From positions 24,155 to 88,154 of the forward strand of contig JAGUYK010000008.1 of NCBI GenBank assembly GCA_020061355.1: 64,000 nt of DNA, given 5' to 3'. Positions within the stretch are counted from its first letter, which is position 1. The number at the start of each line of letters is the position of its first letter. Of the stretch, positions 24,478-53,210 are shown piece after piece. The notes beneath the pieces are model-generated. The model was not told the DNA's origin. It saw only the letters and a list, made by a program, of their open reading frames with translations, and made no database searches. Position numbers and translations under genes: made by a program. This stretch comes from Ignavibacteriales bacterium. Lineage in GTDB: Bacteria > Bacteroidota > Ignavibacteria > Ignavibacteriales > Melioribacteraceae.

Positions 24478-24520
24478 AAATCCGCGGTAATCTGTTTAAT
24501 CCGTGTTAATCTGCGTTCTA
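24478..24520 (+). repeat. ATCCGCG-type intergenic repeat, simple copy
   Basis: AATCCGCGGTAATCTG, TTTAATCCGTGTTAATC and TGCGTTCTATTAAT run without interruption. It is the uninterrupted version of the repeats at 21834-21920 and 51055-51140. It lies between the P1 peptidase and the convergent barrel protein. Confidence 0.65.
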
Positions 24521-24560
24521 TTAATATAATAGAAGTTATTTATGAGACAGCAACCTTTTA

Positions 24561-49903: not shown

Positions 49904-51055
49904 ATGAAAACCCTTTTTAACCACGCAATTAATTATGTCTTTATATTGATCATTATGATCTTCGTAACCAATAATTCAATGGCACAAATAACTTCCGAAC
50001 CGCCGGCGAAACCGAAAACAAACATTGAAGATGCCTTGAAATACGCCCGTAATGAAAACTCTATGCCCGGGAAATATCCCGGTAAAGTTGTACAGGTTAA
50101 TCATGAAAATTGCACTTCCGAAAACAAAATAATTTATCAGTCAGCATATGATATGATAACGAAAGGAATGCTTTCGTTAACCGGTTCCGACAATTTGAAG
50201 GATGCCTGGCTGAAATTCGTCTCGCCGAAAGATAGAATCGGCTTAAAAGTTAATCCCGTTGCAGGTGTTCAGCTTTCAACAAGTGTTGAAGTTACTCAAG
50301 CAATAGTAAAGCAACTTGAAGAAGCCGGTGTTCAGAGAAGTAATATTATCATTTGGGATCGTCGGGAAGAGCAATTGTTTGAAGCCGGTTTTAATCACGA
50401 AAATTTTCCCGGGATAAAAATTATAGGAACTGAGCGACCTGAAAATGGTTCGATGTATGATGAGAATGGAAAACTTCACAGCTTGAAAATGATTGATACC
50501 ACCTGGTATTACTGGGCCGATTGCGAGGACAAGTATGATTCGGCAACTATTCCATATATGGTTAACGAAGGCAAATACTCTTACTTCACAAAAATTGTAA
50601 CGGAGATGGTTGATAAGATTATCAATGTACCAATCTTAAAAAATGCCGGTTCGTCGGTTACACTCTGTTTGAAAAATCTTGCTTACGGTTCAGTTACAAA
50701 CACCGGAAGACTGCATCGTCAGCTATGGGCAGAGACCTGTGCAGAGGTTAATGCATTCCCTCCTCTGCGCGATAAAGTAGTTTTAAACATTGTTGATGGA
50801 ATAAAAGGATGCTTTAACGGGGGTCCGGGTGCCAATCCGCAATTTTTCTGCGAATATAAAACAATTTTAGTCGGAACCGACCCCGTTGCAATTGACCGCA
50901 TCGGTTACGATATAGTGATAAATAAAAGAATCGCCGAAGGAGTTCAGAAAGAAGATAATGCAAGAGGCAGAATATTTATGGAGCTTGCGCAAAATCTGAA
51001 TCTTGGAATTGCAGATATTGATAAAATTTCTTTAACAAAAATTGAGATAAAATAG
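49904..51055 (+). CDS. Exported DUF362 domain protein
   Basis: 383 residues with a Sec signal ending NSMAQ. Matches the DUF362 family: VSPKDRIGLKVNPVAG, a VTQAIVKQLEEAGV helix, IIIWDRRE, IINVPILKNAGSSVTL (the NxPxLKxH-like phrase) and GTDPVAIDRIGYDIV near the end. DUF362 proteins often carry a ferredoxin domain; this one does not, so it is the non-Fe-S form. No biochemical role is known for this branch. Single gene followed by a repeat. Confidence 0.85.
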   Translation: MKTLFNHAINYVFILIIMIFVTNNSMAQITSEPPAKPKTNIEDALKYARNENSMPGKYPGKVVQVNHENCTSENKIIYQSAYDMITKGMLSLTGSDNLKDAWLKFVSPKDRIGLKVNPVAGVQLSTSVEVTQAIVKQLEEAGVQRSNIIIWDRREEQLFEAGFNHENFPGIKIIGTERPENGSMYDENGKLHSLKMIDTTWYYWADCEDKYDSATIPYMVNEGKYSYFTKIVTEMVDKIINVPILKNAGSSVTLCLKNLAYGSVTNTGRLHRQLWAETCAEVNAFPPLRDKVVLNIVDGIKGCFNGGPGANPQFFCEYKTILVGTDPVAIDRIGYDIVINKRIAEGVQKEDNARGRIFMELAQNLNLGIADIDKISLTKIEIK

Positions 51056-51140
51056 AACGCCGATTTTTTATTGATTATTATCCGCGCTGATCAAATTAAA
51101 TCCGCGTTAACTTGTCCCGCCACGCGGGATCCGCGTTCTA
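51055..51140 (+). repeat. ATCCGCG-type repeat with terminal inverted ends and a nested hairpin
   Basis: GAACGCCGAT (51055-51064) and ATCCGCGTTC (51129-51138) are inverted ends, 9 of 10 paired. The interior has TTATCCGCG and AATCCGCGTTAAC, then a 20-base nested hairpin TCCCGC-CAC-GCGGGA (about 51110-51130) placed where the 24478 copy has none. The first end overlaps the DUF362 stop codon. Confidence 0.7.
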
Positions 51141-51160
51141 TTAAATGAGGTGTTTTTTAT

Positions 51161-52027
51161 ATGAAACAAATTAAGTTCGCTTTAATACTTTTCATATTCA
51201 ATGGCTTGCTCTTTTCACAAGAAGCGGATTTTCCTAAACTACTTGAATCCGACATTCCCGGTTCAAAGATAACGCGCGAACAGTATTTTGATGGAAGCGG
51301 TTTGTGGGGATACATTAACGGCGGGGCGGATATTTTTCTTGAATACGGATTCGATAAGCTTCTCCTTCAGGAAGTTGAGATTAACGGGTTTACATTCAAA
51401 ATTGAATTTTATAAAATGATTAATCAGCAATCGGCTTTCGGAATTTATTCCGTCTCACATTACAAGTGTGATGAGAACTCCCTTCTTACAAAATATAACT
51501 GCATCTCCCAATTCCAGGTCCAATGTGCCACCGGTGATTATTACATTTCAATAATAAACACAAATGGAAGTAAAGAAGAGAAAGAATTATCTAATGAAAT
51601 ATTCAATAAAGTTGTTTCAATAATTCCCGGTGGTGAATTTGCTATTCTGGAAATATTTCACAACAAATTATTTGATGGTTCACGTGACCAGATAAAATAT
51701 TTTAAGGGAATTCTTGGTGTTCAGAATGGTTTGATGGAATGGTATGACTACTTTGAAAATTTTAGTAATTATGAAATATATTTTCTTCCCAAGAAAGTTG
51801 ATGACAAGATTGTTAATGTTGCTCAGGTAAAATTCGGTTCCGGATCAGATGTAAAACAGTTTCTAAGCGGACTCGGGATTGTTATGAGTCCTTCAGATAA
51901 TTATTTAAAGAGTGATGATAAAGGAATTGCCAGAATTGTAAAAATGATTAGTGATGTAGAAATGATTTTTATTGAAGGCAATATGAATATGAATGATTTG
52001 GAAAATATAGCTAAACGGTTTTTTTAA
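51161..52027 (+). CDS. DUF6599-family exported protein
   Basis: 288 residues with a Sec signal (FNGLLFSQE). The LWGYINGGADIFLEYGFDKL block (about 49-68) is the hallmark of DUF6599, periplasmic or lipoprotein-like proteins with two related beta-rich halves (TFKIEFYKMINQQSAFGIYS and EIYFLPKKVDDKIVNVAQV). Role unknown. Start has no strong ribosome site but fits the signal peptide. It follows the repeat at 51055 and precedes the GxxExxY cassette. Confidence 0.8.
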   Translation: MKQIKFALILFIFNGLLFSQEADFPKLLESDIPGSKITREQYFDGSGLWGYINGGADIFLEYGFDKLLLQEVEINGFTFKIEFYKMINQQSAFGIYSVSHYKCDENSLLTKYNCISQFQVQCATGDYYISIINTNGSKEEKELSNEIFNKVVSIIPGGEFAILEIFHNKLFDGSRDQIKYFKGILGVQNGLMEWYDYFENFSNYEIYFLPKKVDDKIVNVAQVKFGSGSDVKQFLSGLGIVMSPSDNYLKSDDKGIARIVKMISDVEMIFIEGNMNMNDLENIAKRFF

Positions 52028-52057
52028 AAAGATGTTTACCAATTTTTAAATATTTAT

Positions 52058-52097
52058 TTCACAGAGTTCCACCGAGCATTCACAGATAAACACAGAG
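52058..52097 (-). repeat. Left inverted repeat of the GxxExxY cassette
   Basis: Contains three CACAGA words spaced through 40 bases and abuts the stop codon (TAA at 52098-52100). Its reverse complement aligns with 52480-52519. Confidence 0.65.
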
Positions 52098-52469
52098 TTA
52101 AAGAATAAATCTTTTGATTCCGTTTTTTAAGACAGTGACATTAAAATTCATTAGTAATCCTATCTTTTTATTTGCAAATCGCAAGTAGGTTAGAATCTGA
52201 GCTTCGTGGACTGGCAGGATTGCTTCCTGAGCTTTTAATTCGACAACGACTTCATTCTCAACAATTAAATCTGCTCTGTAACCGCAATCCAATTTAATTT
52301 CTTTATAGACTATTGGAATCGGTTTTTGTTTTTCAAATTTCAATCCGCGATTTAATAATTCATAGCAAAGACATTCCTCATAAGCAGATTCTAACATACC
52401 AGGCCCTAAATGCTAATGAACTTCAATAGCCGCACCGATTATTTCACTGGTAATCTGATTGATTTCCAA
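52098..52469 (-). pseudogene. GxxExxY protein (PD-(D/E)XK nuclease-like), interrupted by an in-frame TAG
   Basis: The full frame runs from TTG 52469, preceded by GGAGGGGG, to TAA at 52098. It reads EINQITSEIIGAAIEVH, then TAG (52413-52415) where relatives have Lys (EVHK.LGPG), then HLGPGMLESAYEECLCYELL. One base change from AAG would restore it. Downstream of the stop an ATG at 52397 could give a 99-residue piece that lacks the first helix. The nuclease-like core YRADLIVENEVVVELKA retains the Asp and the ExK of PD-(D/E)XK enzymes. No function of GxxExxY proteins is known to me with certainty. Confidence 0.8.
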
Positions 52470-52479
52470 TTTCCCCCTC

Positions 52480-52519
52480 CTCTGTGTAACTCTGTGAATT
52501 CTCCGTGTCTCTCTGTGTA
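52480..52519 (-). repeat. Right inverted repeat of the GxxExxY cassette
   Basis: Carries three CTCTGTG words plus CTCCGTG over 40 bases. It runs straight into the ribosome site of the frame (52471-52480). Confidence 0.65.
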
Positions 52520-52565
52520 ATTTTTTTCTTTATAGAACTCGACAGTACAAATTATCTATATAACT

Positions 52566-53210
52566 CTACGGAACTATCCGAAATATTTCCATTTTCTTAA
52601 AATAGCCGACGTAGAATTTCTTTCCCTTCTGCAGATTAATTTGACTTGAGTAGATCTCCTTCAATCCGGACCCTTCCGCTAAATCAACGAACTCTCTTTC
52701 ATCAACCAATTTGATAATTGAGCTCAGTTTTTTAATCGATTCATAGGGTGTTTCAGATACCGGGTCGGAAGAATCGGTTTGCAATTGTAATACCACACTT
52801 ATTATTCCGCCGGGATTCAACCAGTTTGATAATTTACTAAGTACTTTTTGTACATCAACATATTCAAAAATCAATGCAGTATGAATAAGATCAAAATACG
52901 GATGTTGAATTTCCAAATCATTCAAATCAGCACAAATAAGATTTAGTGATGGTAAATCCTCTGCAAACCACGCATGGCATTCAGCTAAGTATTTGTAATT
53001 TATATCAACGCCCAGAATAATTTTATTCTGCCTGTCAATTAAATGCTCAAAACCATTTCCGGTTGTACAACCGGGAATAAAAATTGAATCCGGATTAAAC
53101 TGATCAATTACCTTGCGGAATATTTCGTTTAATACCTGAAGCTGAAGAACATCGGGTGCCGACATATGTGCTTCGTACTCATCAGATTGTATTTGCTGCC
53201 ATGGATTCAT
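52566..53210 (-). CDS. Class I SAM-dependent methyltransferase
   Basis: 214 residues from ATG 53210, 5 bases after the Memo-like gene stop; a longer frame to 53276 overlaps that gene. Rossmann SAM site: SIFIPGCTTGNGFEHL (GxxxGxG-like), VDINYKYLAECH for the acidic end of strand 2 and LICADLNDLEI. Looks like Methyltransf_11/25 types; no substrate can be named. It closes the dmsABC-memo-methyltransferase operon and is the most distal gene. Confidence 0.8.
   Translation of the reverse strand: MNPWQQIQSDEYEAHMSAPDVLQLQVLNEIFRKVIDQFNPDSIFIPGCTTGNGFEHLIDRQNKIILGVDINYKYLAECHAWFAEDLPSLNLICADLNDLEIQHPYFDLIHTALIFEYVDVQKVLSKLSNWLNPGGIISVVLQLQTDSSDPVSETPYESIKKLSSIIKLVDEREFVDLAEGSGLKEIYSSQINLQKGKKFYVGYFKKMEIFRIVP

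Follow-up and report, generated by a model that had tools for sequence, protein, structure and literature searches.

RAYT genes are inherited as single copies and are not known to multiply within the genome. REP/REPIN sequences and their RAYT (TnpA-REP) enzymes are described as a system in which the repeats are associated with the enzyme gene, also occur in extragenic regions without it as singlets and inverted doublets, and fall into classes specific to groups of the enzyme (PMC3116915, PMC8266576). The locus analyzed here carries a GxxExxY gene between two arms that are built from short words. It lies in the window, by which we mean the whole stretch of 64,000 nucleotides.

The locus in the window

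The GxxExxY frame (TIGR04256 / PF13366) occupies positions 52098..52475 of the minus strand. The left arm, downstream of the gene (52056..52097), contains the plus-strand words CACAGAG, CACCGAG, CACAGAT and CACAGAG, and the right arm, upstream of the gene (52480..52521), contains CTCTGTG, CTCTGTG, CTCCGTG and CTCTGTG, with a spacing of 10, 11 and 10 bases in each case. When read toward the gene, both arms consist of CACAGAG-like words, and the letters between the words are more variable. The initial annotation had described inverted repeats of about 40 bases, one touching the stop codon and the other the ribosome site, and this layout was borne out. The arms are 42 bases long and identical at 33 of 42 positions (79 %), and the two 147-nt flanks gave a local alignment score of 26, above the best of 2000 mononucleotide shuffles (24). 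The left arm, whose last base is 52097, adjoins the stop codon of the frame (52098, minus strand), and the right arm extends into the ribosome-site-like GGAGGGGG, with its innermost word reaching GGAGG. CTCTGTG was found in nine copies in the window compared to 2.7 expected, five of the nine being inside the two arms. The shuffles, the controls and the CTCTGTG counts led us to reject chance and low complexity as the origin of the arms.

In profile searches, the window frame scored 126.7 bits against TIGR04256 (cut-off 35) and 120.8 bits against PF13366, PDDEXK_3 (cut-off 22). These were its only matches in Pfam and NCBIfam, and a HuH/Y1 transposase match was not observed. The family named in the initial annotation is thus retained, with a correction concerning the frame. 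An in-frame TAG (52413-52415, minus strand) stands shortly before the GxxExxY motif in the full-length frame, so that the open part is reduced to 99 aa and starts at an internal ATG (52098-52397). In this remnant, the nuclease motif D...ExK (RADL...VELK) is retained. At least in this assembly, the window copy is a pseudogene, a decayed member of the family.

Flanking words and protein clades

Two further GxxExxY genes in the genome of the window have other words beside them. TIGR04256 was present in 46 of the 58 relatives searched, and the best 80 of 581 confirmed stretches came from many phyla (among them Bacteroidota, Planctomycetota, Chloroflexota, Acidobacteria, Proteobacteria and Cyanobacteria) and from an archaeal Methanothrix MAG. 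For the flank test, the upstream flank of each gene was aligned to the reverse complement of its downstream flank, and a locus passed when its score exceeded the 99th percentile obtained from mononucleotide shuffles of that set. The test was passed by 170 of 257 GxxExxY loci (a total in which one locus, L024 = L108, is counted twice as it belongs to two sets) compared to 5 of 242 control flanks taken 500 nt away. The initial annotation had proposed comparing both flanks of GxxExxY genes in relatives; 54 of 88 relatives passed (controls 0/87), followed by 50 of 76 named loci (controls 2/62), 33 of 40 held-out loci situated elsewhere in the named genomes (controls 1/40) and 33 of 53 later loci (controls 2/53). 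When flanks were crossed between different loci, 40/871, 93/751 and 18/464 passed. One-armed and decayed loci are among the 87 of 257 failures. Inverted flanks built of words are a general feature of GxxExxY genes.

The arms are arrays of 7-letter words, which follow C-R-C-N-R-A-K in the commonest classes; successive clade-A words are mostly spaced by 8-11 bases (mode 9). Four protein clades were distinguished with their words: clade A (LGPGLLES) with C-R-C-N-R-A-G, clade B (LGYGFLEKVYE) with [AC]RCRGAT and tips AATAGAAC, clade C (GFxEIVYKDAL) with CACGAAT/CACTAAT, and clade D (GNGFQEVIYQRAL) with AGGATT. At least two cognate words were present in 108/127 A, 16/20 B, 6/9 C and 6/9 D loci, A words were present in 0/38 B-D loci, and B words were present outside clade B in 4/127 A, 1/9 C and 0/9 D loci; for these counts, the patterns were chosen after the relatives had been viewed and six clade-less loci were excluded. 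In a comparison using no chosen patterns, protein identity was correlated with shared repeated 6-mers in non-syntenic pairs (rho 0.25, compared to at most 0.06 in 300 permutations). The type of word goes with the clade of the protein.

The idea of CTCTGTG as a constant mark of GxxExxY genes was rejected, since the words vary between clades and, within the genus, even at a single site. The initial annotation had named relatives without CTCTGTG flanks as evidence against its proposal, and taken literally such relatives do exist (CGCAAAG, CACGAAT, CACGGAT and others). However, the words change jointly with the protein, and this strengthens rather than refutes the idea of a protein-repeat relationship. 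In four clade-B loci (L077, L084, L096 and L101), the arrays contain ATGATT words together with a B tip (AATAGAAC or a variant close to it), which may point to an additional word class that is emerging.

The two arms of a locus change in concert. In a set of 84 clade-A loci with at least two words per side, scored by unfiltered majority letters, the arms agree on letter 2 in 83/84 and on letter 5 in 76/84 loci, compared to 0.54 and 0.51, respectively, for arms of different loci. Among the later loci of all clades, they agree in 23/26 (letter 2) and 22/26 (letter 5). Each of these letters changed at least 18 times on the clade-A tree, a quick tree for which no shuffled count was made. At the window's site, two genomes of the genus (G000, the window's own, and G003) have CACAGAG-type arms and a third (G002) has CGCAGAG-type arms with the gene absent. 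At a site common to G032 and G016 (L073 and L092), both neighbors are homologous and the genes belong to different clades with 37 % identity; here, the words go with the gene and not with the site.

When protein columns were scanned against word letters, residue 3 (numbered by L139; the T of [LI]-T-x-x-[IV]-I-G) ranked top for letter 5. Among 35 disjoint pairs of near relatives differing in letter 5, a gain of Thr together with G was seen 26 times and a loss 0 times, whereas the next best column had a net of 14; the matched pairs are not fully independent of one another, and the column was selected from among all those of the protein. The rule was fixed before 60 more loci were added, of which 7 duplicates were removed, 53 were kept and 31 were scorable. 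In these new loci, Thr occurred with G in 11/11 and other residues with A in 14/20. Over all loci, residue-3 Thr occurred with letter-5 G in 79/79 and other residues with A in 74/100, the remaining 26 of these 100 scorable loci being non-Thr proteins with G words. The rule could be scored in 179 of 263 loci and not in 84; the scored pattern accepts G, T or A as the final letter, and clade D words (AGGATT type) were left out as they have no confident fit to the CRCNRAK frame.

The rule was also observed with the downstream arm alone (Thr-G 73/73; others-A 74/103) and with the upstream arm alone (Thr-G 68/68; others-A 67/97). Within the 24 genomes that hold both kinds of protein, 70 pairs were concordant, 0 discordant and 12 tied, a result reached by 0 of 20,000 within-genome permutations. 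As the rule holds within genomes and with each arm alone, it cannot be put down to the base composition of the genome or to nearness to the codon. The clade-C proteins L097 and L425, which have Thr, carry G words, unlike most of clade C. L467 and L471 have G words although residue 3 is not Thr. Two loci with Thr were judged by eye to be misfits, L328 with CACATAG words and L094 with AGAATT words, and in both the words fall outside the scored form. Residue 99 and others were considered as the setter of letter 2 and found to be weaker (16 to 0 of 36 pairs, but low information in the column scans).

Shared descent is the explanation to be weighed against recognition at this point: arms and gene, being physically linked, would have been copied jointly, and the correlation would need no reading of words by the protein. 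Many loci are indeed syntenic, the letter-change count has no shuffled comparison beside it, and the independent-pairs test restricted to supported branches yielded 3 pairs, too few to decide, so that the matched pairs and the validation set were used in its place. However, at least 18 word switches within clade A took place in both arms together, and the rule holds between clades, inside single genomes (70 to 0), for the far arm taken by itself (73/73) and in new loci (11/11). The words of L073 and L092 also track the protein where both neighbors are common. We consider pure co-inheritance very improbable, and the covariation is hard to explain unless the protein, directly or via a partner, reads the words.

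Gene-free arrays and inheritance of sites

Repeats of the gene-flanking class also occur at scattered places of the genome, both singly and as inverted doublets. When one mismatch was allowed, CTCTGTGnnnCTCTGTG gave 15 matches in the genome of the window and 0 in the control; four are in the window element and some form gene-free inverted pairs. Another word class is represented in the window by a gene-free inverted pair at 51051..51142 with tips AATAGAACGCCGAT ... ATCCGCGTTCTATT, at a site that is occupied in two genomes of the genus, and by a single arm tip, ATAGAACGCAGAT, on the minus strand at 24509..24521 (G000:C29:48663-48675), for which no partner was found within 700 nt. Class-B tips occur 27 times in this genome (controls 0), and the three GxxExxY genes found in it are of other clades. 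Among 24 class-B tips inspected, an inverted partner was observed within 130 nt in 6 and a doubtful one at 685 nt in 1, with none in 17.

Across the 58 genomes, 130 three-word A arrays were found in 25 genomes, compared to 3 for the reversed pattern. Of these arrays, 17 are near a GxxExxY match and 113 of 130 are not. A GxxExxY gene was present in 24 of the 25 array-bearing genomes and in 22 of the 33 others, the genomes being related to one another.

Some of the arrays are parts of other repeats. Identical arrays within one genome were rejected as proof of element mobility since the copies, judged by eye, are MITEs or parts of longer repeats, the latter in G019 and G052. One genome (G055; L392-L396) has five near-identical MITE copies with ends GAGTCTGTTGCA and A-word arrays inside, located in or beside CCTGCCTG-like repeats. 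A second MITE family (G005/G047; L405-L411), with ends CACCTTACGCAA, contains two A-word arrays in inverted orientation, is apparently bordered by TTANTAA-like direct repeats (by eye) and was found in two taxonomic families.

The initial annotation had seen in arms and gene the layout of a minimal mobile unit, with mobility as an inference, and a related explanation is that they form an ordinary small transposon or homing-type unit, in which the arms would be terminal repeats and the solo arms deletion derivatives. Presence and absence at individual sites speak for this. At the CcdA site, 18 family genomes were read by eye (of 21 places found), and the genes simply abut in 10; the others have one gene-bearing element, one gene-free pair of the same A words, one such pair of B type, AATGACT arrays in two (L192, L196; G026, G023), AACAATT arrays in one, one apparent four-helix-bundle gene and one other repeat. 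The site of the window is likewise variable in the genus, with the gene in G000, arms and a gene remnant in G003, and gene-free arms of other words in G002, and the spread of the family over phyla, within the best 80 of 581 confirmed stretches, is wide and patchy.

However, movement of the gene as such a unit at present is not supported. Among 174 within-genome pairs of gene copies, from the loci collected up to that stage, the highest identity was 75 %, and both neighbors are common in 34 distinct locus pairs (37 including a locus fetched twice), from which it follows that many sites are inherited. Direct repeats were seen, by eye, only around array-bearing MITEs, and target duplication was established for no gene-bearing unit. 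A search with one clade-A query gave 8 matches among 72,556 plasmid records and none among phage records. The window copy itself is broken, and the repeats observed away from the gene are arm arrays. An ordinary transposon appears unlikely to us. Within-genome copies of at most 75 % identity together with common neighbors indicate a gene that is mostly inherited, which is the pattern of REP/RAYT and not that of an active insertion sequence.

The position of the arms between stop codons and ribosome sites would also suit regulatory or structural hairpins (a terminator, an mRNA stabilizer or an autoregulatory operator), with the protein as a repressor or an RNA-processing enzyme. The S23 protein of 23S rRNA intervening sequences is described within a stem-forming element (PMC4990558). 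Four solo pairs folded as ssDNA gave z-scores of -3.2, -2.0, -3.0 and -1.1, but 24/200 shuffles of one solo and 5/200 of another folded equally well or better. When the two arms were compared in 72 clade-A elements, identity was 449/558 (80 %) at the variable letters of the words and 219/408 (54 %) in the spacers. The words are therefore better kept, yet the spacers are alike too, and at 54 % identity they are poorly complementary for a stem. No Rfam family was matched in 50900-52700, which indicates that there is no rRNA around the window element. The retention of the catalytic D/E/K residues in 255 of 263 frames argues for an enzyme, and autoregulation leaves the arrays far from the gene unexplained. 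We regard hairpins as a distinctly doubtful explanation.

The flank layout is shared by another gene family. At 29 loci of TIGR02436 (S23-type four-helix-bundle; L265-L293, one per genome), inverted arrays of AGTAATCAGTAATG, GAAGTCAGAAG and AGAATACAG type words were observed, and 14/29 passed the flank test compared to 1/21 controls and 8/277 crossed flanks. The layout does not require a nuclease, since these genes have it as well, and the loci are possibly a parallel system without one. In one region (G013:C4:315319-323462), three four-helix-bundle and two GxxExxY genes are found within about 8 kb, as if elements pile up.

The predicted enzyme and known systems

D63, E73 and K75 were all kept in 255 of 263 frames, and in-frame stops within the family match were found in 14 of 263. 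In 6 of 13 shared-site pairs, dN/dS was 0.04-0.11 with dS up to 2.6, dS being saturated in the other 7; the window copy compared with L022 gave 0.15. An AlphaFold2 model (pLDDT 96) consists of two helices, a strand run, a helix and a last strand, an order that would fit a PD-(D/E)XK core. The top Foldseek matches were weak, with chains of SSO0001 (4ic1; E 0.027, 0.038) followed by AdnA, Bax1 and other PD-(D/E)XK nucleases, and no fold match had E ≤ 0.001. SSO0001 (4ic1) is a Cas4 protein. Cas4 profiles of PADLOC matched 3 of 5 GxxExxY proteins weakly (best E 3.4e-4), and a 14-member profile searched against PDB sequences returned nothing better than E 0.21. GxxExxY proteins are thus predicted to be small (~120 aa) PD-(D/E)XK enzymes of Cas4/RecB-like type, and the retention of D/E/K suggests that they may also cut.

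The architecture, its generality, the conserved catalytic residues, the protein-word covariation and the gene-free arrays are established here. The reading that we favor, at a probability of roughly two in three, is a word-reading PD-(D/E)XK enzyme with its own arrays and with gene-free arrays as partners, which it would itself bind, cleave and spread. The protein would most likely bind the words directly, probably with one protomer per word and several along an array, and may cut or nick at or near arrays. Repair or transposition of the cut DNA could then spread and homogenize the arrays. The enzyme gene is under selection and mostly inherited, and the arrays would be its non-autonomous partners. 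The initial annotation had proposed a protein acting on its own repeats as RAYT does on REP; the general association (170/257 compared to 5/242) and the covariation of protein and words fit this, and recognition itself is what we infer from them. A wider claim seems evenly balanced to us, namely that GxxExxY is a widespread class of word-reading nucleases in which residue-3 Thr specifies letter-5 G, that it builds and maintains the dispersed arrays, and that it is an independent REPtron-like invention, possibly with a four-helix-bundle parallel.

The open literature searched, which leaves most subscription journals aside, returned no description of a GxxExxY word-array system among the matches listed. 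GxxExxY was named there only in passing, PF13366 was mentioned and COG5614 appeared in two listed papers; TIGR04256, six word strings and the combination of PDDEXK with repetitive extragenic palindromic were absent. If our reading is true, a protein family that has only a motif for a name would gain a function, the short dispersed repeat families of many bacterial genomes would be explained, and RAYT-like partnerships of enzyme and repeats would have arisen at least twice. The relation of residue 3 and letter 5 offers a concrete and cheap test of sequence recognition by a predicted nuclease of about 120 residues.

Among known systems, Cas4/RecB-like PD-(D/E)XK nucleases are similar through the weak Foldseek and PADLOC Cas4 matches and differ in size, the GxxExxY protein having about 120 aa. 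The 23S rRNA intervening sequences also have a short ORF within inverted arms, and the TIGR02436 genes are word-flanked here as well, but the window protein is TIGR04256 and not S23, and its element has no Rfam match. MITEs are likewise short non-autonomous inverted-repeat units, and some word arrays are inside MITEs having their own terminal repeats; however, word arrays also occur without such terminal repeats and the words track GxxExxY clades. The likeness to REP/RAYT includes an enzyme gene with its repeats, dispersed gene-free singlets and inverted doublets, clade-specific classes and a gene that does not multiply. The differences are the PD-(D/E)XK fold in place of the HuH enzyme of RAYT, and arms that are arrays of 7-letter words in place of one short REP palindrome. 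Thus, the system is not REP/RAYT by its enzyme, not an rRNA intervening sequence by its context and not an active insertion sequence by its behavior, and it works like REP/RAYT.
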